Shown here in pieces: positions 14,615 through 60,936 of a stretch of DNA of 64,000 nt (position 1 is its first letter; every line of letters begins with the position of its first letter). The position numbers and the translations under genes were made by a program. The notes under the pieces are model-generated. The model was given only the letters and a program-made list of their open reading frames with translations, searched no databases and was not told the DNA's origin. Origin of the DNA: Buddleja alternifolia (taxonomy: Eukaryota > Streptophyta > Magnoliopsida > Lamiales > Scrophulariaceae); contig CM033396.1 of the NCBI GenBank assembly GCA_019426215.1, positions 23,017,101-23,081,100 on the forward strand, in the 5' to 3' direction.

Positions 14615-14624
14615 ACACCCCCAC
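14615..14624 (-). promoter_or_regulatory. Polypurine tract of the Athila element
   Basis: On the minus strand GTGGGGGTGT lies directly against the 3' LTR, the expected place for the plus-strand primer. Confidence 0.7.
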
Positions 14625-16246
14625 AGTTATCAATTGATCGTCCTCGAGCAATAAGAGTTTTAAGATAAGGAAACATCATCAATCAAAGAGAGAAACAAAA
14701 AGAAAACTACCTAACTCACTTTCGTGGAGTAAACGGTTGCATTTAGCGAATGCAACAAGCCTTTGAACCTTTTAGTTACCTCAAAGGACGAGTTATAGTC
14801 TCGTGAGGGTTTGCAGACGATATACCCACAAAATCGAAAGATTTTCAACCCCGATCACTCAACGTAAATTACAATGATTAATAGCACACAATGGTATGAA
14901 TTCATCTGTTTAAGCTCATATTACAAATATATACACATCACACATTTGCTCATGTTACGCCTTAACATTGAAAAGATCATCCTAAGGGTGTAGTGTAATA
15001 AATCTCAAGTATTATAGTCAAGTGGCATTCTTACCACTTTTCAAACATTAACCCCATATTTATCAACTTTTGATTATTCACATGGTACGAGAATTGAATA
15101 CAACTTCATAGCCACTTAAAAATTCATCACTTCATTCCACTTTCGGATTTATCTTATGCACTTTCAACTCGAAACATTAGAGGCTAGACCATGTGCAATG
15201 TTTGATCCTCTTAGGCTTTCTATGACACCCGTGTAACGAGCTTTAGGCCAATAACTCCTAAACCAGATGGCTTTAGGGTATCAAATGTGGAGACACTCCT
15301 AAGGGCTTAATCGCTCGAGTGTCAAAGGCCACAAAATCAAACTAGGTCCTTATTCACTTAACACTTGCATTGGCTTGAGCTTAGCTCAAATTAGCAAAAT
15401 AGTACAGTATTCTAGGCATGGTGCTCTTCGCCCCCAGTATCTATTAAGCCTGACTTTTTCAGTCATACCAATGTTCAACCTCTTTTTATTATTATTAAGC
15501 ACACGAAGTTAACGTTCTCAACTCATAACACATGTGAAAATTCTAAGTTGATATTTCCGGGATCAAGCCTTTAAGTGTTTCAAAATGATTGCCCACTCAA
15601 CTCCTCTACCTTCGATTTAGGTGCATATGTGAATCATCTTAAGGTTAATCTAGTCTAGTTAGGATCCCATAAGCAAAGAACGATGTGTATAGCCATTAAA
15701 ACTAAATTGATAGAGAAAACATACCATGTATTCACATTAACCCTACTCAATGCCTCAAGTGAAGGGTTGAAATTCTATAAAAAAAAATTAAAATTGCACA
15801 CATTTCACATGTAGAGGTACAGCACCCCCCAAACTTGGACCGAAATATGTAAAACATGAATCAACATGACTATAATGGATCTAGTATACCATATACCCCC
15901 CCACACTTATTATGAACATTGTCCTCAATGTTTGAAAAAAAAGAGAAGGTCAAAGTACACGTCACCATGGGGAAGCTGAAAAGCAAACCCGAGTCCACTT
16001 AAGGCAATCAAGTCCACGGATGGCAATCACTGTGTCGATCACTACATAGGTAAACAAATGCTAGCCATACAGAGCATCAAACATTGGATAGAATAGAATA
16101 AAACAAAACGAGACAAACAAAAATTGAGAAACATGCATGGAAAGAAAACATCAAGCATCCAAACATAAAACATAAAATATCCAACAACCCAACAAAAGAT
16201 ATCCAAAAACAAAAAGAAACATGCATGGAAATAAAACAAGATAAGC
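14625..16246 (-). other. Non-coding 3' tract of the Athila element
   Basis: No coding frame of note. It contains a CCCCCCACACTTATTATGAAC...GTCCTCAATG stretch near 15896-15930, and two copies of a GAAACATGCATGGAAA unit at about 16130 and 16218. Confidence 0.6.
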
Positions 16247-16311
16247 CTAATCGGTGGTGCCAAAACGGTCAATGTAATCCTCATCCGCTCCGCCGAGATC
16301 ATCCAAATCAA

Positions 16312-17553
16312 TCAACGGGCTACCCTCATCATTATGAGCCTCATCATCACCTCCTTCAGGAACGAGAGCACCTGACTCGTGCATATCTGCGGGCTGCTGA
16401 GGCGGGGGTGCGGGTAAGGTGGAGGAGCAGAATAATCAAACGGCCCCCAACCGACAAACGCATCATGCTCTACAAAAAGCTGACGGAAATAAGCACAAGT
16501 GTCGGACATGACCACCCTCATCTCATCTCGCAACTCATCCCTCAATTCATCCTTTAATTGTCTAATGGCGGCGGCATCCATAGGTGGAAACTGTGGGGAG
16601 CTAGTAGACCGGGATGAAGACGGGCGAGGCCTCTTGGAAGTAGCTGGTGGTGGAGGAGCCTGGGAGTCGTCATCTACCACGGTGAGATAAGAACCAGGAA
16701 GCTCAGTACGCTCCATAGGAAATGTGGGAACCTTAGCCGCCTTGCATAAAGCTGTGATCAGTGACGGGAGAATGATGGGAATCTTCCGAGTGGGACCTTC
16801 TCCCTTTTGCTTAGCCAATTCTTTGTTAATCAACGGCCCTAACTCATTCTTCAACTTCCTAAAGTGGTCCGTCAAAGACTTGTGGATTACCCGGGCAAAG
16901 TCCACAGCTTTCTTGGACATAATAGCGTAGATGAGGGTGGCCCGTTCCTTGTTTGCCTCTGATCGATTGGTACTCGGTATTAAATTGAATCGGATGAAGT
17001 CGAGCCAGAAAGCAGCCTCGGGTAATAGAGCCCTACGGGGGACATGAGCTTCTCCGGGTACCCATTCCCACCCCTCTCGGCCAATAACCCGCAAAATATC
17101 CGACAGGCTAACTCGGAGGCGCCCTGCATTGTAAAGAGTGGTGAACTCGCATGTCTGAGGGGTCGGGGTGCCTATGCTCTCCCTAATCTGTCTCAACTCA
17201 TAATTGACATGTTTGCCCCGGACCAAAAGGGTAGTCCCCAGCCATCCTCGTGTCTCAATCTCATCATAAACCCCGGAGCTGAAGAATTCCAGGACCCAAG
17301 GAAGATGAATGGCCTCGGGCTTTTGACAGAAAAACTGTAAGCGATGAAACTGTATCAATTCGTGCACAGAGGGCTGTCCCCGGGTGGTTAAATAGTGCTC
17401 CTTAATAAGGGTGCGGGGGGTGCTCAAACTCTGACACATAATTTGGACTTGGGGGTTTTCAAAACGGGTATTATCGGGAGTCTCGGGCTCATTAGAGGAA
17501 CCCTCACCCACTTTTTTCTTACCCTTGGACGGTCTGTTGGTAGTTCTCGTCAT
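16312..17553 (-). CDS. Athila second ORF (env-position, plant transposon protein type)
   Basis: 413 residues from the ATG at 17551-17553. It lies downstream of pol, where Athila elements carry their extra ORF. The body (RGWLGTTLLVRGKHVNYEL...) resembles the family annotated as putative plant transposon protein. I see no signal peptide or membrane span, so an envelope role is unproven. A Lys-rich N-terminus is followed by a globular middle and a Pro/Ser-rich C-terminal third. The last ~28 residues are probably out of frame: another frame of the same strand runs on through an acidic Asp/Glu-rich tail to a TAG at 16247-16249. A one-base indel near 16400-16440 would explain this. Confidence 0.7.
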   Translation of the reverse strand: MTRTTNRPSKGKKKVGEGSSNEPETPDNTRFENPQVQIMCQSLSTPRTLIKEHYLTTRGQPSVHELIQFHRLQFFCQKPEAIHLPWVLEFFSSGVYDEIETRGWLGTTLLVRGKHVNYELRQIRESIGTPTPQTCEFTTLYNAGRLRVSLSDILRVIGREGWEWVPGEAHVPRRALLPEAAFWLDFIRFNLIPSTNRSEANKERATLIYAIMSKKAVDFARVIHKSLTDHFRKLKNELGPLINKELAKQKGEGPTRKIPIILPSLITALCKAAKVPTFPMERTELPGSYLTVVDDDSQAPPPPATSKRPRPSSSRSTSSPQFPPMDAAAIRQLKDELRDELRDEMRVVMSDTCAYFRQLFVEHDAFVGWGPFDYSAPPPYPHPRLSSPQICTSQVLSFLKEVMMRLIMMRVAR

Positions 17554-18685
17554 TTGCAACAACAATGATCAACTTCTCAACTACTCAAATCAACCCAAAT
17601 GCAACCAACCCAATACAACAATCGTCAACGCCCAACAACACACCAAAATCAGAGAGCAACCCACAATCTAGCAACAATCCACGGATTTAACCGATTCCTC
17701 AATTCTTTAAGCAATAATCCACAATTTAATCAACAAAATAGCATCCAATTTCAACAACAACAACCCACAAATTCAATTTCAACCCACAATTTGATAACAA
17801 TAGATCATCCAATTCAACAACAACAACCCTCAATTTTTTTTTTTTTTTATTACGATCCACAAATTCAATAGAAGTCCTCAAACAAAAAAAAAAAAATTCA
17901 ATCCACAATCGGATGAAGCCCCAAATAATCCTCAAAATATAATGTAAGGCACCTACTCGTCGTTTATGAATCGGAAATGGAAGAAGGGTAAAGCCAAAAC
18001 TCACCTTTTTCCCCAAAAATTTTTCGCACCGAGTTGGATGTGAAGGAGAGGCCACTGTGCAGCGAGTGATGTTGATGGAAAGTGGCGGTGAAACACGGTG
18101 GAGATGACCGAAAAAGGTGAGAGTGTCGCCGGAAATCGCTTGGGAGAGGAGTTGTGAAGAGTTTGTGAAGAATTTTGACCGTTTGACCCACAAATTTGTT
18201 TAAATCAGAAACGGGCGCCTAGGCGCGCGTGTTTGGGCGCCTAGGCGCGCGACACAGCGTACCTGGAATTTTTTTACTTGTAATGCCCGCGCCTAGGCGG
18301 GCGTTGTTTCGGCGCTTGGGCGCCCCTTTCAGAACCGGGCGCCTAGGCGTCTGTTTTCTCGGCGCTTGGGCGCCCCTTTCAGAATCGGGCGCCTAGGCGC
18401 CTGTTTTCTCGGCGCTTGGGCGCCCCTTTCAGAATCGGGTGCCTAGGCGCCTATTTTCTCGGCGCTTGGGCGCCCCATTCGGAAATATTTTGTAAAGAAT
18501 TTCATTTCCTGTTTCAAAAGGGAAGAGACAAAGCACTTAAAACACAAACTAACAAAGATGTAAGACTAGAAAATAAAGCAACAAACGGGATAATAAGGGA
18601 AAAAGAAAAGGAAACGGAAAGAAAACATGGGTTGCCTCCCAAGAAGCGCTAGTTTAGAGTCATTAGCTCGACTGAAAGCGAAGAA
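17554..18685 (-). other. Spacer between Athila pol and second ORF
   Basis: A CAA/CCCACAATT-rich low-complexity tract covers about 17600-17850, with A and T runs at 17826-17848 and 17885-17896. The GC-rich repeat array described separately is at about 18205-18475. No protein is supported here; the open frames at 17726-18193 and 18416-18652 are by-products. Confidence 0.6.
18205..18475. repeat. GC-rich tandem array, ~50-bp unit
   Basis: Units of about 50 bp pair GGGCGCCTAGGCG with CGGCGCTTGGGCGCCCC and a TTTCAGAATC linker. The last three and a half units (about 18330-18475) are almost identical; earlier ones are more divergent. The same core recurs in the LTRs and in gag-pol. Confidence 0.85.
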
Positions 18686-21600
18686 TCACGAAGGGTCCGC
18701 GAGGATGAAGGACTCTTTGTCTCTTGGTCCATCCATCCCTAAGTAAGGTTTTAGACGTTGAGCGTTGACCAAGAAAGTATGTCCTTTATCTGTTGTAAGC
18801 TCGACGGCGCCGGATGGATAGACCTGGGAAATCAAAAATGGGCCCGACCATCGAGACTTAAGCTTCCCGGGGAAGAGTCGGAGTCGAGAGTTGTATAGCA
18901 ACACCCGCTCTCCCTTGTGGAATTCCCGGGGGAGAATATGTTTGTCATGCCACATTTTGGTCCGCTCCTTATAGAGTTTTGCGTTCTCATAGGCAAGATG
19001 ACGCCATTCTTCGAGCTCGTTGAGTTGTAGCAAACGTTGTGTACCTACACTTTGAGAGTCAAAATTTAGAAACTTAATGGCCCAATAAGCACGATGCTCG
19101 AGTTCAACGGGCAAGTGACATGTTTTGCCAAAAACAAGACGATACGGGGACATGCCAATTGGGGTTTTATAGGCGGTCCGATAAGCCCAAAGAGCATCAT
19201 CCAATTTAAGGGACCAATCCTTTCTTGATGCGTTGACAGTTTTTTCTAAAATACGCTTAATCTCCCTATTCGAGACCTCCACTTGGCCACTAGTTTGTGG
19301 GTGGTATGGGGTCGAAATTTTATGCTTCACCCCGTACTTGGTCAATAAAAGTTCAAACTGCCTGTTGCAGAAGTGGGTGCCCCCGTCACTAATGATGGCT
19401 CGGGGAGTTCCAAATCGAGTAAAAATATGCTTCTTCAGAAAACGAGTGACAACCCGAGCATCATTAGTAGGCAAGGCCACGGCTTCCACCCATTTGGAGA
19501 CATAGTCTACCGCAACAAGGATATATTTATTTGAACAAGAACTGGGGAAAGGGCCCATGAAATCCACACCCCATACATCAAACAACTCACACTCTAACAT
19601 GCTATTTAAGGGCGTTTCATGATGTTTAGAGATGTTCCCCATTCGTTGACAGCGATCACAAGATTTGACATAATGATGTGCATCTTTAACAAGAGTAGGC
19701 CAGAAGAAACCTGATTGGAGGATCTTAGCTACCGTTTTGGAAGGCCCAAAATGGCCACCTACCGCCATATCATGACAATGAGATAGGATAGCATGCACGT
19801 CCGTTTCGGGTATGCAACGTCGAATTAAACCATCTGCACAAACTTTGAATAAAAAGGGTTCGTCCCAAAGATATTGCTTTACATCAGATAGAAATTTCTT
19901 CTTTTGATGAAAAGTGATATCCGGGGGAAGACGGCCCGTAACAATGTAATTGGCAAAGTTAGCATACCAAGGTGAAATTTTTTCAGAAATAGCAAGGAGG
20001 TGTTCATCTGGGAATTCCTCACGAATTGGTGTCTCATCTAACGGATCATTCACTAGCTCTAATCGTGAGAGGTGGTCGGCTACTACATTTTCGGTGCCTT
20101 TCTTGTCTTTTATCTCTAAATCAAATTCTTGGAGTAACAAAATCCACCTAAGAAGTCTTGGTTTAGCATCTTTCTTGGCAAGCAAATATTTTAAAGCCGA
20201 ATGATCGGTGTAAACTATCACTTTGTTTAGCACGAGGTAAGAGTGGAATTTATCGAATGCAAAGACTATGGCGAGTAATTCTTTTTCCGTGGTGGCATAA
20301 TTCAATTGTGCATCGTTAAGAGTTTTACTAGCATAGTAAATGGTTCGAAATACCTTTTCCTTCCTTTGGCCAAGGACCGCTCCAACCGCGGTGTCACTCG
20401 CATCACACATCAATTCGAATGGTAAGCTCCAATCGGGGGATGACATGATAGGGGCGGAAACTAAGCGTTCCTTCAAATCAAGAAAGGCCTGCATACAAGA
20501 AGAATTGAAATCAAAAGGTGCATCTTTAACAAGCAAATTAGACAACGGTTTCGCAATTTTAGAGAAATTCAAGATGAATCGCCTATAGAAACCAGCATGC
20601 CCGAGGAAACTCCTAACAGCTTTTACCGATGTGGGCGGGGGAAGTTTTTCAATGACCTCAATCTTGGCTTGGTCCACTTCGATCCCTTTTTGAGAGATCT
20701 TGTGGCCAAGTACAATCCCCTCCCGGACCATTAAATGGCATTTTTCCCAATTCAAAACAAGGTTGGTTTCTTCACAACGTTTAAGCACAACATTTAGATG
20801 AGCAAGACAAATATCAAAAGTTGTTCCGAAAACAGAAAAGTCATCCATAAAAATTTCAAGGAAATCTTCAACCATATCATGAAAAATAGCCATCATGCAT
20901 CTTTGAAAAGTGGCCGGGGCATTACACAAGCCAAATGGCATCCTTCTATAAGCAAATGTGCCATAAGGACAAGTGAAAGTGGTTTTCTCTTGGTCCTCAG
21001 GATCTATGGCAATTTGATTATAGCCGGAGTAACCATCTAGAAAACAATAGAAATCATGCCCGGCTAATCGTTCAAGCATTTGGTCAATAAAGGGGAGGGG
21101 GAAATGATCCTTACGTGTGGCATCATTCAACTTACGGTAATCTATACATACACGCCACCCACTAATTATACGAGTTGGGATAAGCTCATTATTCGCATTC
21201 TCAATTACCGTTATCCCCCCTTTCTTAGGCACCACTTGGGTAGGGCTCACCCACGCACTATCAGAAATAGGATAGATTATACCTGAGTCGAGCAGTTTAA
21301 TCACTTCCTTCTTTACTACCTCTTGGATTTGTGGGTTTGATCTCCTTTGGGGTTGGCGTGTAGGCTTGGTGGAGTCCTCCATAAGTATTTTGTGCATACA
21401 TATCGCTGGACTAATGCCTTTGATGTCCGCAAGTTTCCACCCAAAAGCCCGTTTGTGAGATCTCAACACCGTCATTAATTGCTCTTCTTGTGATCCTGAA
21501 AGAGATGAGGAAATGATCAATGGGAGTGTTTCGTCATCGTTCAAGTACACATATTTAAGGTGGGAGGGGAGGGGTTTGAGTTCGAGAGAGGGGGGTTCTT

Positions 21601-24184
21601 CAATAGATGGGCGAGGTGATCCTGACAATGATCTATCAACTTTGATGAATCCTCCCGAATGAGAGGAAGATTTGTACTCCAAGCTTAGAACCTTTTCCAC
21701 TAGATCATCTTTCTCCGAGTCCACTTGCATGGATTTCATAAGATTCTGTTCGAGAGAATTTTCAATTGTATTGTCCTGTAAATACTCAACAATCAAATGG
21801 TCAAATGTATCAATTCGATAACACGAGTCATGATCAATAGGATGTTTAAGGACTTTGTAAACATCAAAGGTAACTTTGTCATCGCCCACATTCAAGGTAA
21901 GCTTACCATTAGCAATGTCAATTACCGCCTTACCCGTGGCTAGGAATGGTCTCCCTAGGATTAATGGTACCTCCACATCTTCTTCCATGTCGAGTACTAC
22001 GAAATCAACGGGAAAATAAAACTTGTCGACTTGGACAATAACGTCTTCGATTATCCCCTTGGGCCTCTTGATCGATCGGTCGGCTAGTTGAAGGCTCATT
22101 GAGGTCGGCTTGGGATTTCCAAGGCCTAGCTTTTTAAACAGTGAGTATGGAAGAAGATTGATGCTGGCCCCCGAGTCACATAACACCTTCTTGAATGATA
22201 GGGATCCAATCGTGCATGGGATTGTGAGACTCCCGGGATCTTGGAGCTTAGTTGGCAATTTATTGAGTAATACGGCGGAGCATTCTTCCGTGAGGCACAC
22301 CGTCTCATTCTCTTCCCACTTCTGCTTGTTGGAGAGTATGTCCTTGAAGAACTTCACATAATTCGGCATTTGGAGAATGGCGTCAATAAACGGAATATTA
22401 ATTCTCACTTCCCGAAGGATTGCCAAAATTCGAAGAAAGCTCGGATCCATCTCCTTTTTCTTCTTTTTGTGAGCATTTGGGAAGGGGAGACGAACTTCGA
22501 TAGGGGGAGAAAGCGTTGGATTAGACGGATGAAAACCCACTGAAACAGTAGGCGGCGCCTGGGCGCGTATATCGGCGCCTAGGCGCGGATCTGTTGGCGC
22601 CTGGGCGTGCATTTCTGGGCGCTCGGGCGCGGGATGCAGAACATATGCATCTGGCAGGTTTGTGGGTGGCGCCTGGGCGCGTATATTGGCGCCTAGGCGC
22701 GTATCTGTAGGCGCCTGGGCGTGCAGGTTGGGGCGCTCGGGCGCGGGATGCAGAGAGTTTTGTCCAGAACAGGGTAGATCAGGCGCCTGGGCGTGCATGT
22801 CGGGGCGCTCGGGCGCGGATGTACTGGCAGTGTCATTCTCCAATTGTTTGCCACTTCTCAAGGCTATGGCATTGCATTGGGCCTTCGGGTTCTTTTCCGT
22901 GTCGCTTGGGAGAGTCCCCGGGGCTCTACCGTTAACCGCATTAGAAAGTTGCCCTACTTGTGTTCGCAAATCCTTCATCTCCATACACATATCCTTTATC
23001 ATACCCCGAAGTTCGTTGAAAGATGTATCGGACTTTTTCATGTGAGCATCTAGTTTCTCATCGATTGTGGGAGGTCGCATTTGCACTTGACCTTGACCTT
23101 GTCCATTGAAATTGCCTTGCCTCGGGGGTGGGTTATTGAAGGGTGGTCGTGGAGCTTGATAGATCCCCGGTTGTGCGTTCTGTGCGGGGTTGGGCCTTTT
23201 TGGAAAATTCTCGGGTATATGAAAGTTCACCCGAGGTTTATTTTGATTCCCCACATAATTAACATTGCCAACCTCCGGTTCCAAGACTACTACTTCCTCT
23301 ACTACTTCCTCAATACAAGCAACCTTTTTAGAGGATGAGGCCTCTTCATCGTCGGGGTAAAGCTCGTCTTCTCGGGCCAACTGTTCGACTTTGTCCCATA
23401 CACTTTGACAGTCTAACCCAAGGAGATCTCCTCCCGCACCCGCGTTGAGTCTATGCCGAATACGTGACCTAACCCCATCATAGAAATGGAGTACTTGTTC
23501 ATTCAACCCAAAATTATGATCGGGACATTTACGGAGCATGCCCTTATATCTAGCCCAAGCCTCGGCTAAAGATTCATTGCTCCTTTGCCTAAACCCTTTT
23601 ATATTACTCCGTAGCTCATTGATTTTTGAGGGTGGAAAGAATTTATTTAAAAAGGCATCGACCAACTCACTCCATGTTGTAATAGATTGTGGAGGTAAGG
23701 ATTTGTACCATGTTGTCGCCCTATCCTTCAATGAGAAATGGAAGACTCTTAGACGAATCGCATCAAGATCTCGTGGGTGATATTGAATGGTCACAAGAGC
23801 CTCATCTATGGTTTCCAAATGAGCGTGTGGTGATTCGTGCGGTTCTCCATAGAAAGGATCTCCTTGCACCATATTAAAAATGTGAGCCGGAATGTGGTAG
23901 TTTGGTGTGAAGAAATTAGGCACGACTACGGGCCCCGGAATGGTATGGACCCTAGGTGGTAAGCTACCCCGAACCGACGGGAGTTGTGGAGGAGGTACCG
24001 CTTGCATGGCTTGTAGAACACCTTGTAACCACTCCCTAGTTTTCGGTGAGTTCATGTCCGGGAAATCTCCATTTGGGTTTTGGTTGAGATTATTGGCCAT
24101 TTCTCTTCCTCGCCTACTAGTCCTAAGAACTCGTTCAATTTCGGGCTCCAACTCGTATAGAGGCTTGTTTGAGGAGCGGGTCAT
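18686..24184 (-). CDS. gag-pol: Athila gag-pol polyprotein, uninterrupted
   Basis: A single 1832-residue frame from the ATG at 24182-24184; the open frame runs upstream to 24235 but only from a GTG. In order it has a retrotransposon gag domain (about 125-225, with [16 protein letters not shown]), a Pro-rich linker containing repeated AQAP blocks, an aspartic protease (CDSGAS, Asp670), reverse transcriptase (FMDDF, 1112-1116), RNase H ([13 protein letters not shown], near 1260), and integrase. The integrase has an HHCC zinc finger (about 1470-1515) and the catalytic triad Asp1541, Asp1600 and Glu1636; the last two are 35 residues apart, as the D,D(35)E rule demands. No chromodomain follows. 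I find no CCHC zinc knuckle in gag. With all catalytic residues present and no stop, it could be active. Confidence 0.95.
22545..22825 (-). repeat. In-frame GC-rich repeat inside gag-pol
   Basis: Between gag and protease the DNA carries about ten GGCGCCTGGGCG/GGCGCCTAGGCG-type cores. They encode repeated RAQAPPT, HAQAPTD and LHPAPERP blocks (roughly residues 455-545). The DNA core is the one seen in the element's LTRs and spacer. Confidence 0.85.
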
Positions 24185-24321
24185 GCACCTCAAGAACCTA
24201 ACAATTAAATACAAGAACAAAATTAGACTAATCACGAAAATAAAAGAAAATCAAGAAATAAACGAAAACTAAGAATTATAAAAAATGTAAACGAAAATAA
24301 AAAAAAAACTAAAATAAACAA

Positions 24322-24340
24322 GTCCCCGGCAACGGCGCCA
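24322..24340 (-). promoter_or_regulatory. Athila primer binding site
   Basis: The minus strand reads TGGCGCCGTTGCCGGGGAC, six bases inside the 5' LTR. This is the primer site type used by Athila/Tat elements. Confidence 0.85.
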
Positions 24341-24346
24341 AAAACT

Positions 24347-26015
24347 TGACACGCTAAAAGCTAACGTGCTATGATAGCAAGTGCACTAGACGTGTGTAGT
24401 AATAAGTGGACAAAAAGTCCGGGTTGTCGAACCACAAGGACTTGAATTCTAGTTAATGATTTTCGATAAAAGATAAGACAATTAAAGTAAAGTGCAAGAA
24501 AAAGATTAAACAAACGAAGAACCAAAGAGAAACGTACTATAGATTTAATCTCACGTATGATAAAATGACTAAGGCACATGCTACAACCGAATCTACTCGT
24601 CAATATATATGAGCTACTCTTCGAATTATTAGACTCCTATTGCTTTGGTGGAAACTCCTAAATTAACTATTACCCGATGTCTCGGCACATAATAATCCTA
24701 TGATTAATTGACGGTTCTCTAAATATGTCTATCCGAGAATCTAATCAAAAATCACGCATTAACGTTCTAGAGCTTCCCCGAACGAATCCGGCTAACAACA
24801 CCCGGGAATCTTTACCTATTTCTAGGGCAATCCCTCATTTGTTTCGGATGATGTGTTAATTCTCTTGCACCCTAATCTATTTTCTCTCGAACAACTAGAT
24901 TAGGCAAGATAGCAAGCATATGGTGATCAAACACATGATTGGAATAAAAGCATAGAATTAACACACAAAGCAATAGGAGAATTAATACAAAGAGCAACTT
25001 CACATATATTGATTCATAAATTTGGCCTTCACATGGCCTTAGTTCTACAATATTAGCCTCTCATCAAAGCTTAAGAAAATCTAATACAAACATATACATA
25101 CTCATGGAAATAAACATGTAAATGCAAATAATTAAAACTCCCTCAATTGATTGATGATGGATCTTTGCTCTCTTGATCTTCAATCCTTAGCTCCTCTCTC
25201 TTTGTTCCCCTCCAAAAGTGATGAAGAAATGGTGATGAATGATGATGAGTGAAAAGTGATGGCCAAAATGCCTCTCTCTCTCTCCTCCTCCAAGATGTGT
25301 CGGTCAATTGTGCTCAAAAATGCCTTAAGAAGACCACAACAAATCAGCTCCTAGTGTGTGTCTCCCCTAGTGTGTCCTCCACTACTCTTAAAGTGAGTAG
25401 TATAAAATTCCCTAAAGTAGATCTATTAAGAAACATACTTATGACATCCCTCTCATACATGTGATGACCTCTTGGCTTTAAATGTTCCATTCCCCCATCA
25501 AATGATGATCTTTTGGCTGAAAAGAATCTCAATTCGGGTGTGGACACGCCTAGGCGTGGCATTACGGCGCTTGGGCGCGGGATTCAGAATGCTGAAATTA
25601 AATGCAATGTATCCTGTGCAGCAATCGTATTTCATTCATAACTTTCTCCACGAAACTCCGATTTGGATGATTCAAGTCCTCATTTGAAGCTAACACATAG
25701 TTCTACAACATTGTAGAAGGGAACTTCATCCAATTCGGCCTTTAAACATACGGAAATAGCGCTCGAACGTGGAAAGTGGTGTAGATACGGCGCCCGGGCG
25801 TGGGCAAGATGGCGCCTAGGCGTAGGGGTGCGTAGCAATTTGGCCTAAACTTGTTTTATAGGTCATTTTTCATCCCGTTCTTTGATTGTATCCATTTAAG
25901 ACCTGAAATCACTTAATGCACGAATTAAACGCACATGTGGCAAGAATCAAGCGATAAATGAACCTAAGACATAAACGCAAAGGGGCTTAAAAACACGTAA
26001 AAATGCCTCTTATCA
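24347..26015 (-). repeat. 5' LTR of the Athila element
   Basis: 1669 bp, near-identical partner of 12944-14614. Differences include single-base changes near 24389, 24533 and 25617, and a small cluster around 25361-25378. Confidence 0.95.
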
Positions 26016-26874: not shown

Positions 26875-27099
26875 GTATATACTATTCTAAATTTAGAGGT
26901 GGCAAAATTGGTTTAGTTTTGGGTCTTTAGTAGGTTCAAAGTTTCCTATTTCGGGTCCATTTGGTTCCTAAGATTTTTTTTTTGGGTTTGCTTTGGGTCC
27001 ATTTTGTGTTTATATTGGGTAGAGTTTGGGTTCAACCTAAATTTTCCTAAAAAAAATTGATTCATTGGGAATTTATTATAGGTACCCAACCCACCTCAC

Positions 27100-28186
27100 C
27101 CCACCCCTCACACACATTAGAATTTTACACACGCAACATACTTTATGCACAACAAAATATTTTTAACACGCATTGCACTCATTTTACACACACTACATGC
27201 TACACATACCACACTTTTTACTCACATTTACACCCACACAACATATTTTTTACACACACTATGCACTTTTTACACGTACTGGCCACATTTACACAAATTA
27301 CACACATTTACACAAACACACTTTTTCACTGCACACACACTTACACACACAACACACTTTTTACACATATTTACACACTCTGCATATTTACACACACAAC
27401 ACACTTTTACACACTCTGCATACATTTACCTACACACAACACACTTCTTACACATACTTCACATATTTACACACACAACACACTTTTTACACACTCTGCA
27501 CGCATTTACCCACACACAACACACTTCTTACACATACTTCACATATTAACACATACAACACACTTTTTACACACTGCACGCATTTACCCACACACAACAC
27601 ACTTCTTACACATACTTCACACATTTACACACACAACACGCTGTACACAAATCACACGCACATTGGAATTTTTACATACACCACACTTTTTACACACAAC
27701 ACACTTTTTACAACTATTACCCACATTTTGAAACACACAACACACTTTTTATACAAATTGCACACATTTACAAATGCAAAACATATTATTTACACACACA
27801 AAGCACATGCTTTACATACACAACAAATGTTTTACACACACTGTACACTTTTTACATAAACTACACATTTTTTACACACACTGTACACATTTACACACAC
27901 ATAAAATCCACTTTTTACACACACTGCACACATTTACATTATGCATCTTTTACTCACATTGCACCCATTTAACAGACTATAACACACTTTTTGTCCACAC
28001 AACACACTTTTTACACACATTACACACACAAAGCATATTTTTTAACATACTGCACACACATTACACTTTTTACACACGCAACACACTTTTTACACACAAA
28101 AAAAAGCTTACACACACTGCACAACTTTAATACTCACAACACACTTTATACATACAAATTACGTATTTTACATCACACTAAACACA
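27100..28186. repeat. AC-rich minisatellite, left arm
   Basis: Variants of a CTTTTTACACACACTGCACACATTT..-type unit. A higher-order unit of about 80 bp is visible where CTTCTTACACATACTTCAC recurs at 27444, 27524 and 27602. Confidence 0.85.
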
Positions 28187-28191
28187 TTTTA

Positions 28192-30323
28192 TGTTGGGAG
28201 TGCATATAAAAACTCAGCAGAAGCAATTGAAGCAATAAAAATACCAAAGTGATCATCTCGATTTGCGTATTCAAATCGATAAAATGCTAAAACTTACCCG
28301 TTGTAGCGAAGTGGTTGGAGAGCCCGACTCTTCAAAAAATTTTGAATCTTTCGGAAAGCTATCTACACCACTCCTTAGAATATCCAATCTTCTGGATTCT
28401 TCGTTTGAATTCTTGAAGTTTGATTCAAACAACGAATTTACCTCGCCTCTAATAATCATCACGCGGACTGGTGGAAGAAAAATTCTTCTTCTTTCTCTAT
28501 GGTAGGCAACAACTAGTGTGTATAGAGAGGGGATGGAATTTTATTTTTTCTAACTTGGGAGAGTTATGAAAGACTTAGGTCAAAAAGTCACAAGTGATAA
28601 GTGTTTATATCATTTAACTTATTGACCAAGACAAGACTCCAAAGCCTAGTGTTAGGCATCCAAGGGGACGCCCAACTCGGCCATGTAGGCGTCCAAATGG
28701 ATGCCCACCTTGGCCCGACTTGGTCTTGTGATTTAATTACTTATTTATTTTATTCAATAAATTAATTAATTAATTAACCAAATTAATTAGATAAATTAAT
28801 TCATCAATTTATTTCTCCAAAAAGTTAATTAATTTTAATCTTATCAATTAATTAATGACCTCGTTTAATGAGTAACCAATTAATAATATTAAATTTGTCC
28901 AATTAAATTCTCCTAAACTAAATAAAAAAATTCCTTTTATTTTTCTTTGTCAATCCATAAGCGCAATTCTTTCGGTTCGTCTTGTTTGGCAATGAGAGGA
29001 ATTCAAAGAATATGGGCAACACCTAGCCATCACGTGGCCCACTTCGTAGCCCAACGAGATCAAATGAGTGGATCATTCTAAAACCTTTCCAAAAGTGAAT
29101 TCTGTATACATATAAACCATTTGTTCTCGTGTCCCAGTCAAGTGAGAGTCATGGTTATGTCAAACTCACTAAACTTGACCATATATATAAATTATAATAA
29201 TACGAGATCACTAAATTTGCTTTTGTGCCCGACACTAGCAACTCTTATACTTTGGACAAAGATTTTGATCTTTATTATCCATAATCACATTAACACTTTC
29301 TCATTCACTTATGAGAAAATAAATCCCTATCTTAGTAACCAGTTAAGACTACCAGTCGCTCATCAATTTGCATTTCAAGGTGGACCCACCAATGGTGAAT
29401 TAGATCTAACTACTTTAGTGACAGACTTGATGTCACGAGTGGATCTCCAATCTGATGCTTCAGGTCAAAGGTTCACTTATACCTATCGTGAATAATCAGT
29501 TATGTCATTGACAATCACAATGGTAGTCTTAAGTGAGAGTCATGGTTATGTCAAACTCACTAAACTTGATCATATGCATACATTATAATAATACGAGATC
29601 ACTAAGTTTGCTTTTGTGCTTGACACAAGCAACTCTTATGCTTTGGCCAAAGACTTTGATCTCTATTATCCATAATCACATAGACCACTTTCTCGTTCAC
29701 TTATGAGAGAACAAATCCTATCTTAGTAATTAGTTAAGATTATCACTCACCCATCAAGCTGCATTTCGAGGTCGACCCCACTAACGTGTGAATTTGATCT
29801 AACTACAATAGTGACAGACTTGATGTCACGAGTGCATCTTCAACCTGATACTTAAGGTTAAGGTTCACTTATACCTATCGTGAATAATCAGTTCTGTCAT
29901 TGACAGTGACAGAGCGAAAACTCATGTGACAAAGCCGATGTAAGTCGAGTTTGAACATATCAGTTCCACTGATGTGTCTACAATCATAAGCTCCCACTAT
30001 TACATAGTATTCGGCAGGCACTTCCATGTCAGTGCTCAAATTGTACAAGTGTACTAAGTCTATATTCCCCATTAAAGACTTCTTATTATTTGCGAACATG
30101 TTAAGTAATCAAGATCAATCTCTCTACTGCCTTTCTTCCTATCTCATAGGAAGTAGAGAGATTGCACTGATTACATGGACAAGTGTTTTACACTACTTAC
30201 AGATGCTTATAAAATTTATGTAAAAACTAATAAAATGCCTTTTATTATAAATAAAATAGCCAATTACAAATCGAATGTCTCATACAATCTACCTCTATAG
30301 CATCTGAGGACATAATTCTAACA
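28192..30323 (-). mobile_element. Solo Copia-type LTR with TSD TTTTA
   Basis: On the minus strand it starts TGTTAGAATTATG and ends CACTCCCAACA. Perfect TTTTA duplications lie at 28187-28191 and 30324-30328. The 2132 bp hold no coding frame with family features. The left part matches the window's first 120 bases in reverse complement. It contains a 391-bp tandem duplication. An internally deleted element rather than a solo LTR cannot be excluded. Confidence 0.75.
29141..29925. repeat. 391-bp tandem duplication inside the LTR
   Basis: Two head-to-tail copies, each beginning AGTGAGAGTCATGG, start at 29141 and 29532. They run through to CGTGAATAATCAGTT, with roughly 90% identity by eye. Confidence 0.9.
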
Positions 30324-30328
30324 TTTTA

Positions 30329-30954
30329 CACAAACACTGTACACGTTTTACACTCACCCGATATATTGACACACATCACACATTTTACACATACAACATA
30401 TATTTTACACACAAAAAATGTGATGTGTGTATAAATGTGTGCAGTGTGTTGCGTGTGCCAATACATGCATTGTATCTAAAAAGTGTGTAATGTTTGTGTG
30501 TAAATATGTGCAATGCATGTAAAAACTTTGATGTGAGTGAATAAAAAGTGTGTAGTATGTTTAAATGTGTGCAGTGTGTGTAAAAAATATATTTTGTGTG
30601 GTTGAATTGTGCAATGTATATAAAAAGTATATTGTGTGTGTGTAAGTATGTTTAGTATATGTAAAAAGTATGTTGTATGCGTAAAAATTAAGTTTTGTAT
30701 GTGTAGATGTGTGCAATGTGTGTGTAAATATATGCATAGGGCGTAAAGTGTTGTGTGTGTAAATGTGTGAAGTGTGTGTAAAAAATATATTGTGTGTGTG
30801 TAAATGTGTGCATATGTGAAAAAAATGTGTTGTGTGTGTAGATGTATGTGTAAAAAGTGTGAAGTGTATGTAAAAAGTGTGTTGTGTATGTGTAAATATA
30901 TGTAGTATGTGTAAAAAGTGCATAGTATGTGTAAATGAGTGTTGTGTGTGATAG
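30329..30954. repeat. Hinge and inner right arm of the minisatellite
   Basis: The first ~85 bases continue the AC-rich left arm. From about 30418 onward the strand polarity reverses to TGTGTGTAAAAAGTGTG-type units. Confidence 0.8.
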
Positions 30955-32836
30955 TGTTAAGGGTCATGCGAGCCATCTAATGGCTTGACCATTATATTGT
31001 AAACACTACGACGGTCTTGTCTTTAATATTATCTCATATTTATTTTGATAATCATGTATTTATCACATATGCTTTCAATAGTTTAGATACAGATCCCATG
31101 AATCACTTATAGCTAGGGGAGTGGTTGAGCATGGGAGGAGTGACAATCGTGGAATGCTCTCAATGACTGTGATCCTAAAATCCCATTCCAACAGTCTAAA
31201 TCTAATCTAGACTATGAGATATGATATATCATAGTTTCATCAAGACTTGTTTGTTCATTACATTCTCATGGGAGAGTGCCTCATTCCATGGGCAATGACC
31301 AAGGGGTCAATGCATACACAAAGATCCATACTTGTTTGAGTATGAGATTGAACAACCCCCATTAGGATTCCTTGTTGATTCCATGCCTAACATGGAATCC
31401 TATGGTTACGTAGGTGTGGGATTAATCCTCTGACCTGAGGTGTCATGGTTGGGATGTGTGCTGCCCATTGCACTTTAATATATCATAGGATTCCAAAAGA
31501 AACATTAAATGAGATATATTGGATGTAGGCTGTTAGTATGACAGAACATATGATTTTAGATATGGAATCCATCCACAGCTGGCTGCCTGGTATTTTCTAT
31601 ATTGTTGAGTAAGCTGAATGATCGACAAAAGACTTTGGCCAGACCAGATCATTAGTGTTCCAACATAGTCGTAGCTTCTGAGTTATTAGGGTTTCGACAT
31701 ACGCCAAACCCTAGACTACAGAAAAAGATGGAAGGATTCGACTCTCATGAAGATCTTAACCTAGAGAGGTTTGTTGTTCATCACATTAATATCTAGAAAG
31801 TCATGGTGACATTGCTAGACATCGATCTATGACCAATAGGTGCCTTGAATTAATACAGTGAAATTAAGTCAAGGCTAATTCATTATTTGTCTAAATAGTT
31901 AATTAAGACAATGTAAGGATTGTCTAGCCATTTGGAGAGAGGACCTATTGCTAGCTTATTAATGAGCGTAGAGGGTCACATACTTAACTTAGTGTAGTAG
32001 CTATTGGTGGAATTAATTCTTTGTGGTGGAGAATTAATTAATTGGAAAAAAATATTAATTAAGTTGTCTTAATTAATAATAGTCTTATAATTTAATATTG
32101 GAATATTAAATTGGGAGGAGAATAATTAATTAATTTGTAGTCTTATAATTAATTAATATGGAAATAATGTTAAAATAACATTTAATTAATTAATTATTTG
32201 CCCAATTAATTAAATGGAAAGGATCTTAAATATATGGATGTTCTAATTAATTAATTAGAGGATCTAATTACTAGAGGAAGAGAGATTGAGAGGGAAAATA
32301 TAATATATAATTTATTAATAAAACACACACTCACTCACGGTGCATGTGTGTGCGCCGATGGACGTGCACTTGTGCACCATATATTATTATTATAATTGTT
32401 ATTATTATTATATTAAATGGTTTAATTAATAAGTTGGGAGCTTGGTTATTCTTCTTCTCTCTCTGCATTAGAGTCTATACACGTATTTTACCCTTTTCTC
32501 CATAAGCTAAAATGTTCGACTTCTCTTAGCTAGCACTTATAGAGAAGATCGAGTGTTCAAGCTAAGGTGTGGATACAATTAGAAACGCTTTACACAGTTG
32601 GATTATAGAAGCAAATGAGTCAAGAGAATTGGTTGGTGCAAAATCATTTTCTCCGTAAAGTAGAGGTTGCTGGTAAAGATTTGTTAATTGAATTCATCGA
32701 AAAGGTAAATTGCAAAAACCCTTTATGTATGTTTCACAAAAAATTCGATGGTACCATGTTTGCCTAATCCCTGTTTCGGGGGTTGTGCTTAATTACTTTA
32801 ATTATCTGTTTCCGCTGCGCTCACAATCCCAGGGGA
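30955..32836 (+). mobile_element. Copia-type LTR inserted in the right minisatellite arm
   Basis: It starts TGTTAAGGGTCATG inside the GT-rich array and ends near TCACAATCCCAGG, after a CCGCTGCGCT motif also found near the end of the window's first LTR (CCGCTGCGTT, about 700). The GT-rich array resumes at once. Flanks are GATAG and GATTAG, an imperfect duplication, so the right end is uncertain. A TA-rich ATTAATTAATT tract occupies 32025-32270. Confidence 0.5.
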
Positions 32837-32840
32837 TTAG

Positions 32841-33238
32841 TATGTGTAAATATGTGCAGTGTTAAAAAGTGTATAGTATGTGTAAATGAGTGTTGCGTGT
32901 GTGTAGATGTATGCAGTATGTGCAAAAAATGTGTAAATATGTGCAGAGTGTTAAAATGTGTGTTTTGTGTGTAAATGCAAATATGTATAAAAAGTATGTT
33001 GTGTGTGCGTAAATGTGAGTAGTGTATGTACAAAGTGTGTAGTATATGAAAATATGTGCAGTGTGTGTGTAAAAAATATGCGTTATGTGTAAAAAAATAT
33101 ATTATGTGTGTAAATGTGTGCATGTATGGAAAAGAGTGTTGTAAATGTGTGTAAAAAGTGTGTTGTGTGTGTAACTATATATGTGCAATATGGGTAAAAA
33201 ATGTGTTGTGTGTGTAATATGTGTAAAACGAATCCTGA
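32841..33238. repeat. GT-rich minisatellite, outer right arm
   Basis: TGTGTAAAAAGTGTGTTGTGTGTG-type units, the reverse complement of the left arm. Open frames on either strand are artefacts. Confidence 0.8.
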
Positions 33239-33489
33239 GCATAACATTTTAATGTGTTCATTAATTTTGGGGCGAGGTGGTGTTGGGTTCATATTGGGTT
33301 TATTTCGGGTCCTTATTGGGTCCAATTTGTGTCCTTATTATGTCAGTTCTGGGTCTTTATTGGATCTATCTATAATGCAATTTTTGGCTTGGGACCCGAT
33401 TGGACTTGACGTAATTTGGACCCAACCCAAACCCAACCGATCCACCCAATTGGCACCTCTGATTCTAATATATACATATAACTAAGGGT

Positions 33490-33730
33490 GATTTATGATC
33501 ATATCCCTCTTATAATGTGTAATTACAAAAAAAACCGCTCTTGTTTTTTGAAATTACCAACACCCCCCTATAGGGGCTAATTGTAAGGTTTTAGGGACTA
33601 AGTTGTAAGAATTCTTTAATAATAAGGGGGTGATTATAAGAAGTGCATTACTTTAGGGGTCTTTATGTAATTTACAAAAATAAGAGGGAATTTTTTTATA
33701 AAACACATTATAACAGGGGAGGTTTGAAAA
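33490..33730. mobile_element. Small palindromic MITE
   Basis: The left half (CCCTCTTATAATGTGTAATTAC) recurs inverted on the right (near 33685-33722, AAAACACATTATAACAGGGG). It is about 240 bp, AT-rich and non-coding. The duplication at its borders was not resolved. Confidence 0.4.
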
Positions 33731-34238: not shown

Positions 34239-35023
34239 TAGGGCTGTAAACGAGCCGAGCTCGAGCCGAGCCTGATGAAATTTTCAGGCTCGAGCTCGAG
34301 CTCGATTATACTTTTTTGAGCTCGAGCTCGAGCTCAAACTCGACGAGCCTCATTTTCTAGGGCTCGAGTTCAAGCTCGAAGTAGATGAGCCAAGCTCGAG
34401 CTCGAGCTCGAGCTTGAAGTAAAAAATAATTTAATTTTTTTTTAGAAAATAAAATAAAATATATTTTGCTTTTTAGCTTATAACAATACGTTAATAATGT
34501 ATAGCATACATTATTCACATATACAATAAGTATTATTAAGATAAATAATAATTAAATATCTTATATTCAATAAGTATTTAGAAAATAGAGGAGGGTGTCG
34601 TGAAAATATGATTTCATTAAATTATTTATAGAAAAGTATATCATATCAACTAAAATATATAATCTTATAATTGTTGTTGTTATTGTTTTGCACGATTTAA
34701 ACAAAATAGGAAAAAAAAACTTAAATATTATTAAACTATGTTGTATATAAAATTGCAAGTATTATTTTTATGAAATACGAGTATTTTTAGACATATATTA
34801 AAAATTAATAAAAATTAATATTAAAAGCTCACGAGCCTGCTCACGAGCATATGAACAACTATAAGTGAGCTCGAGCTCGATTCACGAAAAAACTCGAGCT
34901 CGAAAAGCTCGACTCGAGCTCGAAAAGCTCGACTCGAGCTCGAAATAGCTCGAGCTCGAGCTGAGCTCCAGTCGAGCCGACTCACCATGCTCATGAGCCG
35001 GCTTGGCTCACCTTACACCCCTA
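34239..35023. mobile_element. hAT-type MITE built from GAGCTCG repeats, perfect 8-bp TSD
   Basis: The element starts TAGGGCTGTAA and ends TTACACCCCTA, an 11-bp inverted repeat with one mismatch. GGGCAAGC occurs immediately on both sides (34231-34238 and 35024-35031), an exact 8-bp duplication that identifies the hAT superfamily. Both ends carry runs of the self-complementary hexamer GAGCTC/AGCTCG; the middle is AT-rich. No protein is encoded. Confidence 0.8.
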
Positions 35024-35575: not shown

Positions 35576-38500
35576 ATGGCTGATTCGTCTTCCTCGTGTG
35601 GGTCTTTTTCATCATCAATCCATGATAAATCCCCAACAATACAACGATTTTCAGATGCATCAGACTTTGAAGCTATTTCAAAAAGTATTCTATCTTTTGC
35701 TAGAGTGTTTAATGTTCCTGATTTCTTTGACTTGGTTAATCGGGTGGAAGAATATGAAAATTCAAAGAAAACGCAGCAACTAACTGACACGCTAATACCT
35801 AACGTGCTTTTAATAGCAAGTGCACTAGTCGTGTGTAGTAATAAAAGTGGACAAAATAAGTCCGGGTTGTCGAACCACGGAGACTTGAATTTTAGTTTAT
35901 GATTAATGAAAATGGACAAAAGTAAATTGCAATAAAACGAGTAAGCAAGTGAAGAACCCAAGAGAAACAAACTATAGATTAAATCTCACGTATGATAAAA
36001 TGACTAAGGCACATGCTACAACCGAATCTACTCGTCAATATAGATGAGCTACTCTTCGAATTATTGGACTCCTATTGCTTTGGTGGAAATTCCTTAGATA
36101 ATTATTACCCGATGTCTCGGCACATAATAATCCTATGATTAATTGATGGTTCTCTAAATATGTCTATCCGAGAATCTAATCAATAACCACGCATTAACGT
36201 TCTAGAGTTTCCCCGGATAAATCCGGCTAACCGCACCCGGAAATCTTTACCTATGTCTAGGGGCAATTCCACATTAGTTTCGGATGATGAGTTGATTCCA
36301 TTGAACCCTAATCTATCTTCTCTCGAATGACTAGACTAGGCAAGATAGCAAGCATATGGTGATCAAACACATGATTGTAATAAAAGCTCAAAATCAACAC
36401 ACAAAGCAATATGAGAATTAATACGAAAATTCACTTCACATATATTGATTCATAAATTGGCCTTCACATGGCATTAGTTCTACAATATTAGCCTCTCATC
36501 AAGGCCTTAAGAAAATCTAATACAAACATATACATACTCATGGAAATAAACATGTAAATGCAAGTAATTAAAACTCCCTCAATTGATTGATGATGGATCC
36601 TTGCTTTTGAACTTCAATCCTTAACTCCTCTCTCTTTGTTCCCCTCCAAAAGTGATGAAGAATGGTGATGAATGATGATGGGTCAAGAGTAATGGCCAGC
36701 TGCCTCCTCTCCAAAGTATCATCGGTCAAGAGTGAAAAATATGGCTTAAGAAGACAAGAAACTCTGGGCTCTCTAGTGTGTGTCTCCCCTAGTGTGTCTT
36801 CCACTACTCTAAAGTGTGTAGTATAAAATTCCATAAAGTAGATCTACTAAGAAACACACTTATGACATCCCCTCCATACATGTGATGACCTCTTGGCTTT
36901 AAATGTTCCATTCCCCCATCAAATGATGATCTTTTGGCTGAAAGGAATCAAAACTCGGGTGTGGTCACGCCTAGGCGTGGGCATTACGGCGCTTGGGCGC
37001 CGCTGACAGAATGCTGAAATTAAATGCAATGTGTCCTGCGCAGCAATCGTATTTCATTCATAACGCTCTCCACGAAACTCCGATTTGGATGATTCAAGTC
37101 CTCATTTGAAGCTAACACATAGTTCTACAACATTGTAGAAGGGAACTTCATCCAATTCGGTCTCTAAACATACGGAAATAGCGCTCAAATGTGGAAAATG
37201 GTGCAGATACGGCGCCTAGGCGTGGATAGGATGGCGCCTAGGCGTGGACAGCAGAATGTTGACGTTATTTGCATCTTGTCCGGCGCCTGGGCGTGGTAAT
37301 ACTGGCGCCTGGGCGTGGACGACAAAAGCAAATTGGCCTGAACTTGTTTTATACGTCGTTTTTCGCCTCGTTTCTTCGTATGCTCAAATTTATCACCTGT
37401 AATCACTTAACACCCCGCTTAAACGCGAATGTGGCATGATTTTGTCAATAAATGAATCCATAGCATAAGTCCCATGGGCTTAAAAACACGTAAAAATGCC
37501 TCTTATCACTAACGAATATGGAAGACATGGAATCAGATTTCAATTTGCCACTCATTAATACAAAATTTGCAAATGTAGTTTCATCTCCAATTTTATATAA
37601 AAGTCGTTCCAAAAGTGATATTGGCCCGATAGGATTAAAGTCGATGGTAAAGGCTCAAACATACTAATTGTTGAAGGAAAGTATCACGTCGGAAGTACCA
37701 AGTTTGGCCAGAAAAGGAGTTGTTTCGGCTGGTGGAGACGCTCGAATGTCAATTGATGGCGCGCAGGAAAATCCTAATTTTCATGCAACGTTTGAATGCC
37801 AGGAAACCAACGTTCGAACGTTGCATCCAGAATTAAAATCTCCAGAAGTTGACTCAACGTTCAAACATTAGGTTTCCAATGTTCGAACATTGGAACCAGT
37901 ACCAAATGAGCAAGCTGACCAGACGGAGTTTTTGATTAGGAGTATACATGTGGGTCCGAGAGTGGTCAGTGATTCTTCACAATTCATTGAATCTAAATGA
38001 ACATTGCTTCAATATATTCCACCGGAAACAATTAATGGTAAATGTTTTGTTCTTCCAACTTGGGATTATATGAAAGCTAGATTGGATTTGTGGGAGAATA
38101 CTCTAGTGGGCTACTTCATTGCTAAAAAGCCATACTTTCTTTGAGTCAAGAAGTATGTTCTCTCGGTTTGGAAAGGGCTAAAGGAGGTAAAAACAACTAG
38201 CAGCGGATTTTTCTTCTTCAAATTGAATCAGAGGCTGCTATGGCTGAAATTCTTGAGGGAAGACCTTGGTTATATCAAGGCCAAGTGTTGTTCATTGAGA
38301 AATGGCGGATGAGAATGACACTTGAGAAGAAGAAGCATAAGAAAGTTCCGGTATGGGTCAAATTTCGTAATTTACCGACAAAATTTTGGACAATAGATGA
38401 GTGTTGTTGCAATTGCATTAGGACGCCCATTATATCCTGATGCATTTACTTTATCTATAGTCTGTATTGACTATGCTAAGGTGTGTATTCTTATGTCAAT

Positions 38501-39927: not shown

Positions 39928-60936
<21,009 letters not shown>

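Follow-up and report, generated by a model that had tools for sequence, protein, structure and literature searches.

A foldback-like transposon with hAT-like ends in Buddleja alternifolia and similar arms between PIF/Harbinger-like ends

The 64,000-nt stretch of Buddleja alternifolia DNA analyzed here (64 kb, called the window below; coordinates count from its first letter) contains long minisatellite arrays in opposite orientations, bordered by words resembling transposon tips. The question raised by this locus is whether the arrays and their borders form one mobile element and, if so, what kind of element carries such arms. The analysis revealed that 26894-33461 is a single transposon, old and non-coding, with two mirror-image minisatellite arms. 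It is very probably a non-autonomous cut-and-paste DNA transposon, to be filed under hAT as an old member of a large family in which the mobile unit runs from one end through an AC array, a hinge and a GT array to the other end. The most surprising fact of the analysis, invisible from the window alone, is that such arms also lie between PIF/Harbinger-like ends.

Build of the element

The element has hAT-like ends, TAGAGGTGGCAA... on the left and, inverted, CAGAGGTGCCAA... on the right. Between them an AC-rich minisatellite with units of ~20 bp, ~1.2 kb in total, abuts its GT-rich inverse of ~0.9 kb at ~30412. The parts are as follows (A-end and G-end are the two end types of the family, described in the next section).

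26884-26891, unstranded: left target-site duplication (TSD) candidate ATTCTAAA, imperfect, 7/8 against 33462-33469 after a 2-base slip
26894-27104, plus strand: left end, with the terminal inverted repeat (TIR) TAGAGGTGGCAAAATTGG and a GGGTC-rich terminal domain, probably of an old, diverged G-end type (through genomic copy L029)
27105-28191, plus strand: left arm, AC-rich ~20-bp minisatellite of the TTTTTACACACA type
28192-30323, minus strand by eye: solo long terminal repeat (LTR), a later insert in the left arm, with a TTTTA duplication at 28187-28191 and 30324-30328
30324-30412, plus strand: inner piece of the left arm reaching the hinge, its alignment weak alone
30412-30413, unstranded: hinge, the AC array passing directly into the GT array (C-G switch; predicted hairpin across it)
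30413-30954, minus strand: first piece of the right arm, GT-rich, reverse complement of the left-arm minisatellite (z 13.5)
30955 to about 32839, unstranded: second insert, LTR-like, right edge ill-defined, with array sequence duplicated on both sides
32840-33230, minus strand: outer piece of the right arm (z 13.8)
33220-33461, minus strand: right end, with TIR CAGAGGTGCCAATTGG and a terminal domain of A-end type (A-end profile, E 4.1e-29)
33462-33469, unstranded: right TSD candidate ATTCTAAT, from the octamer comparison

Array motifs were counted over the whole window in 250-base bins, with at least two motif matches per bin. Motifs of AC type occurred only in 27001-28250 and 30251-30500, and those of GT type only in 30251-31000 and 32751-33250. 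With this distribution there is a single strand switch in the window. The cumulative C-minus-G curve places it at 30412, in agreement with the hinge near 30415 proposed in a preliminary description made from the sequence by eye.

The left arm was aligned with the reverse complement of the two right-arm pieces. Scores of 222.5 (first piece) and 171.0 (outer piece) were obtained, the maxima of 200 dinucleotide shuffles each being 150.0 and 115.5, while comparison on the same strand scored just 12 and 13. The z-scores of 13.5 and 13.8 confirm that the arms align inversely beyond dinucleotide likeness. The 93-bp left-arm piece beside the hinge reached 40.0 against a shuffle maximum of 38.5, which is unconvincing alone. 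A register test of colinearity gave no single diagonal, so that a unit-by-unit match of the window arms was not demonstrable; identities of 40-mers within and between the arms are similar (0.67-0.73), and the arms are ~70% alike.

The left tip lies at 26894 and reads TAGAGGTGGCAAAATTGG; its inverted counterpart on the right, CAGAGGTGCCAATTGG, ends at 33461. This pair is weak by itself, its score being reached in 82/1000 shuffles. A box ACCCAAC(A)CCACCTC.CCCCA near the arrays is inverted between both ends (0/1000 shuffles). The near-matching octamers reported outside the element, ATTCTAAA and ATTCTAAT, are indeed identical at 7/8 positions, but only after a 2-base register slip, and such a likeness arose by chance in 221/20000 trials drawn from the whole window and 319/20000 from the local flanks (1.1-1.6%).

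It had been suggested that two LTRs hide the symmetry of the arms. Both insertions are later than the arms, and the first is a solo LTR with its TTTTA duplication; the second has no clean right boundary, and its LTR identity is putative. The solo LTR holds an internal tandem duplication of ~380 bp (29140-29519 and 29531-29911, 88%). Overlapping open frames of 132-230 amino acids (aa) lie in the arm at window positions 27051-28130 on the plus strand; they are best seen as a by-product of the almost G-free array rather than as genes.

Relatives in the genome and their two kinds of ends

A search of the host assembly (853.6 Mb, 429 contigs) with the left arm, in which 40 of 1199 candidates were scored, gave at least 175 matches, counting the window itself. 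Twenty loci were fetched whole and 18 more by their two ends, 38 in all, in addition to L029. All 20 whole loci have an AC arm and then a GT arm, and in 19 of them the last AC and first GT motifs are separated by 7-116 bp. In the remaining locus, L016, the switch is occupied by ~0.8 kb of sequence outside the arrays (L016:2820-3625). This sole sizeable middle among the 20 whole copies may be an original loop that was kept or an insertion of later date. Among the loci seen by their ends, 15/18 gave plus-strand and then minus-strand matches and 3/18 a single strand among the matches listed.

The 38 loci were sorted into two classes by profiles of the terminal ~200 bp; the sample was drawn by likeness to the window arm, and the resulting 23 and 15 loci are not a genome-wide ratio. 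Class 1 (hAT-like, 23/38) has an A-end, TAGAGGTGGCAATT, on one side and a G-end, TAGGGGTGGCAATT, on the other. A single end was seen in four of these loci (L020, L021, L048/49 and L058/59), and the A-end of L022 is truncated; copies with both ends seen always pair one A-end with one G-end. Of the 18 copies in which both hAT ends are complete, 12 have an exact, adjacent 8-bp TSD enclosing the whole palindrome. In L010 and L028 the 8-bp duplication becomes exact once one end is shifted by one base, and in L009, L027, L038/39 and L052/53 none was found. The short TIR TAGRGGTGGC, present at the ends of the relatives, is exact at the left tip of the window element and reads CAGAGGTGCC at the right. 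Foldback elements of the Mutator-like element (MULE) superfamily, such as those of FARE type, have TSDs of 9-11 bp; in the 12 hAT-ended copies with TSDs the longest exact adjacent match was 8 bp. By 8-bp TSD and tip, class 1 would fit hAT, near rice Dart.

Class 2 (15/38) has GGCTGTGTTTGG... and GGCTGTGTTTGGATTGATGG-like tips and two inner domains, P and Q. A single end was seen in L026, L062/63 (a partial match) and L064/65. PIF/Harbinger elements are recognized by a 3-bp TTA or TAA TSD and a GG..TGTTTGG TIR. TTA or TAA stands on both sides of 11 of the 12 complete class 2 copies, and L040/41 has TTA/TTG, so by 3-bp TSD and tip the class would fit PIF/Harbinger. The end types were never mixed in any of the 38 loci.

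The arms had been described as inverted copies of each other. This holds for the minisatellite and for the first ~12-14 bp; the outer ~200-bp domains of A-end and G-end differ, as seen in five relatives and the window. Kilobase inverted tandem-repeat arms are thus present in all 20 whole loci, with little middle in 19, and the inversion does not extend through the arms to the tips. With terminal domains of ~200 bp that are unlike at the two ends, the elements are foldback-like in build rather than possessing a classical foldback TIR.

Several hinges recur at separate places in the genome. One is common to six hAT-ended copies (L010, L011, L014, L015, L017 and L028), a second to L009, L013 and L027 and a third to L020 and L024, these also hAT-ended; the Harbinger-ended L012, L023 and L026 have one hinge in common. 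Inside each set the polarity of the hinge agrees with the ends, and since hinges are shared in the polarity given by the ends, hinge, arms and ends were copied together inside these sets. A search with the A-end gave at least 41 matches (40 of 351 candidates scored), 34 of them at new places. Twenty of the 34 were read inward and all 20 run into an AC array, the query itself touching the array edge. In total, at least 74 places came into view (38 + 34 + L029 + the window), with both arms checked in part of these. Together with the arm alignments, the relatives uphold the preliminary description of a single foldback-like element with hAT-like ends and inverted minisatellite arms.

When arms were compared by 9-mers, the four nearest arms all had the same ends in 19 of 20 left arms and three of four did so for L022; the missing ends of L020, L021 and L026 were typed by inference in this comparison. 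The two arms of one copy average just 0.76 by the same measure, and the arms of the two sides look like separate lineages. The inner non-array stretch is at most 114 bp in 8 of the 11 copies checked, the longest being 816 bp in L016, 334 bp in L024 and 329 bp in L025. The eight consist of just two ~200-bp ends and arrays, and none of the 11 copies has space for a full transposase gene. Among terminal domains of full length (19 A, 18 G, 12 P and 14 Q), identities average 91-93%, with the closest pairs at 96.5-98.2%, which suggests a fairly recent spread of the copies with full-length ends, the window copy excepted.

Two irregular places were seen. An extra cluster of AC motifs lies ~0.6 kb beyond the right end of L013 (L013:6750-7068), either a stray array piece or another element. 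At G000:C15:18894609-18895112 two A-ends stand back to back, 28 bp apart, each reading into its own array; these are two elements side by side.

One kind of array inside two kinds of ends

Arms of the two classes were aligned with each other over their inner 540 bp, using four of 10 Harbinger-ended and four of 30 hAT-ended arms chosen by the investigator. All 16 pairs gave z-scores of 7.9-21.6 (60 dinucleotide shuffles each); control pairs within the classes, one per class, gave 15.9 and 15.5. Both classes have a period of ~20 bp and common words such as TTTTTACACAC and TTTTACACACAC. Base composition was compared in nine copies: the arrays contain 2.3-6.5 CG per kb versus 14.8-28.6 in the flanks, and CHG is low (1.1-3.3) in the six hAT-ended arrays and 15.1-19.2 in the three Harbinger-ended ones. 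Low CG and CHG content is a possible selective reason for such arrays. At the threshold used, no match was seen between the terminal domains of one class and those of the other.

From these data we infer that the array may have passed by descent, with exchange between hAT and PIF/Harbinger backbones. The inverted minisatellite core would be an exchangeable cassette between non-autonomous hAT and PIF/Harbinger elements of one genome, riding two unrelated transposases, and the window copy, with hAT ends and Harbinger-like array words, would record either an exchange or the ancestral state; we give this proposal an even chance. The simple nesting of a hAT element in a Harbinger element was rejected for the five loci searched (L012, L016, L018, L023 and L026): inside the bounds of their elements there is no hAT TIR word, two mismatches being allowed, the few such words in these loci falling beyond the bounds, and no match to a hAT end profile below E 1e-9.

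We rank convergence as the main rival to array exchange. The two superfamilies would have acquired look-alike arrays independently, low-G arrays of ~20 bp being favoured, for instance, by escape from CG and CHG methylation or by binding of a common host factor. The unmatched hinges and terminal domains speak for this, as does the scarcity of CG in all nine copies; that of CHG is confined to the six hAT-ended ones. Against it stand the same period, the shared words and cross-class z-scores set beside those of the within-class controls, and convergence appears unlikely.

How does the window copy fit into the family? Its right end matches an A-end profile made from five other copies, with the window left out, at E 4.1e-29. 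Its left end is 81% identical over 213 bp to L029 (E 2.6e-48), which begins TAGGGGTGGCAAAATGGG and, in a search by itself, fits the G-end profile at E 1.7e-7. By 9-mers the window array resembles Harbinger-ended arms (0.59) more than hAT-ended ones (0.34). The words ACACTGCACA and CACAACACAC occur at 0.5 and 0.9 per kb in hAT-ended arrays, 8.7 and 3.5 in Harbinger-ended arrays, 3.0 and 5.9 in the window and 2.0 and 4.1 in L029. Alignment z-scores for the left arm were 7.7-12.1 against hAT-ended and 8.4-13.0 against Harbinger-ended arms, and those for the first right piece 6.5-8.7 and 7.3-12.9. Because the z-scores for the two classes overlap, we claim no source for the window array: either its words are an ancestral unit kept by older hAT arrays or arrays were exchanged. 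The window copy is best read as an old, diverged family member whose duplication has decayed and which has gained two inserts.

A number of observations weigh against these readings. The G-end profile does not match the left end of the window element at E 1e-3, and L029, its nearest relative at that end, is without a right arm within the 11 kb followed. The target duplication of the window copy itself is imperfect (7/8 with the 2-base slip), and none of the other copies has a hinge like that of the window copy at the threshold applied. The hinge of L019 fits several copies better when reversed, with low scores (for example, 74 versus 48 with L011). Both superfamily assignments are made by TIR and TSD alone. 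Finally, hAT-ended and Harbinger-ended hinges do not match at the threshold used; because of this, a common array may have given rise to the two palindromes independently.

The mechanism that we propose for the hAT-ended family is as follows. A hAT transposase supplied in trans would recognize the Dart-like tips and cut there, the element being a passive passenger. The palindrome would have been born once or a few times when a subterminal array was duplicated in inverted orientation; the arms, each a lineage of its own, would subsequently have varied in length through slippage and unequal exchange. The array type could have moved between hAT and PIF/Harbinger backbones through breakpoints inside the array, for instance by template switching during gap repair. 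By analogy with the arms of Galileo, the arrays may serve for binding or pairing.

The locus might instead be mainly a source of hairpin RNA or small RNA for the host. Three pairings of the arms as RNA were folded, each beside 15 shuffles made within the arms, and stronger pairing than in the shuffles is predicted for all three (z -6.8, -16.0 and -7.8). However, the arms are just ~70% alike and, in the window copy, interrupted by two inserts, and transposition explains the family without an RNA role; we consider this reading improbable.

The alternative that had been named is a tail-to-tail insertion of two hAT elements, separate and with one array apiece, and both outer ends are indeed hAT-like. 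No TIR-like site was found at the hinge within three mismatches, and elsewhere inside the element there are only three sites with three mismatches, at 27280, 31435 and 32661. Copies ending at the hinge were looked for, and all 20 fetched relatives pass through the switch. Identical hinges recur in copies at other places, and 8-bp duplications bracket both arms together in 12/18, which excludes this arrangement for the family and leaves it with very little probability.

The least probable reading is that of a plain AC/GT-rich satellite, or of dinucleotide symmetry arisen by chance, which happens to be edged by TIR-like words. It can draw on the weak tips of the window copy and on the low cofold energies of even shuffled AC/GT arrays, and is rejected on the dinucleotide-shuffle z of 13.5 and on dispersed copies with exact TSDs and common ends.

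Surroundings, known systems and significance

The window contains other transposons. An LTR retrotransposon at ~12944-26015 has LTRs that are 99-100% identical in six of seven ungapped pieces (75% in the seventh) and 99.4% over a further 316 bp; its minus strand holds a stop-to-stop frame of 1854 aa, gag-pol by eye. A third LTR of this family lies at ~35782-37245 or beyond. Two shorter elements, 34241-35022 and 42136-42520, have tips of the AGGGCTGTAAACGAG and GGGGTGTAAATGAG type, GAGCTC-rich subterminal arrays flanking an AT-rich core, and flanks that by eye resemble 8-bp duplications (GGCAAGCT; CCCACACG/CCCACATG). They offer an ordinary hAT-like layout for comparison. Just beyond the right end of the foldback-like element, an inverted repeat pair (33505-33573 and 33651-33718, 77%) is possibly a small miniature inverted-repeat transposable element (MITE). 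A scan for viral-contig patterns found nothing.

Rice Dart has the TIR gcccatttggccacctcta, whose reverse complement starts TAGAGGTGGC, and an 8-bp TSD (PMC2956540); TIR type and TSD length are thus as in the window family. Its relative nDart1-0, a non-autonomous hAT element, is just 607 bp long with ~72% GC (PMC10199049), and the accounts covered mention no inverted minisatellite arms.

The majority of foldbacks are placed in the Mutator superfamily (PMC4079207). FARE of Arabidopsis resembles the present family in its long palindromic arms in a plant genome (PMC4079207, PMC4486113) but is classed as a MULE, whereas here hAT-like tips occur with 8-bp and Harbinger-like tips with 3-bp TSDs. Rice foldbacks are said to carry short tandem repeats in their TIRs (PMC10794571), and Tnr8 of rice is likewise a plant foldback (PMC3688188). 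The preliminary description, which knew of no named plant family with this build, therefore overlooked FARE, Tnr8 and other rice foldbacks, FARE itself being set apart by its MULE classification. Tetris of Drosophila virilis is foldback-like and non-autonomous; it possesses an outer flanking domain as well as internal tandem repeats, and has the last part of its TIRs in common with the MITE DAIBAM. It is a Drosophila element, with the Mutator superfamily suggested, and the account covered does not report arms common to different superfamilies (PMC4079207). Galileo has a foldback build outside MULEs and long repetitive arms with multiple transposase-binding sites; unlike the present elements, it belongs to Drosophila and the P superfamily and retains remnants of a transposase gene (PMC3688188). 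Foldbacks in plants and outside MULEs are therefore already known. Within the titles and abstract openings covered we found no account of plant hAT foldbacks or of an array spanning superfamilies.

Overall, hAT-ended foldbacks are dispersed in many copies through this one genome, alongside a parallel Harbinger-ended set whose arms are alike in kind. The long repetitive arms of foldback elements have so far been poorly explained. They may be selected, through transposase binding, chromatin or methylation escape, or hairpins, or they may be passively inherited, and two transposases with one array would allow the comparison to be made. For annotation the family is a warning: such arrays can be the interiors of transposons rather than satellites.

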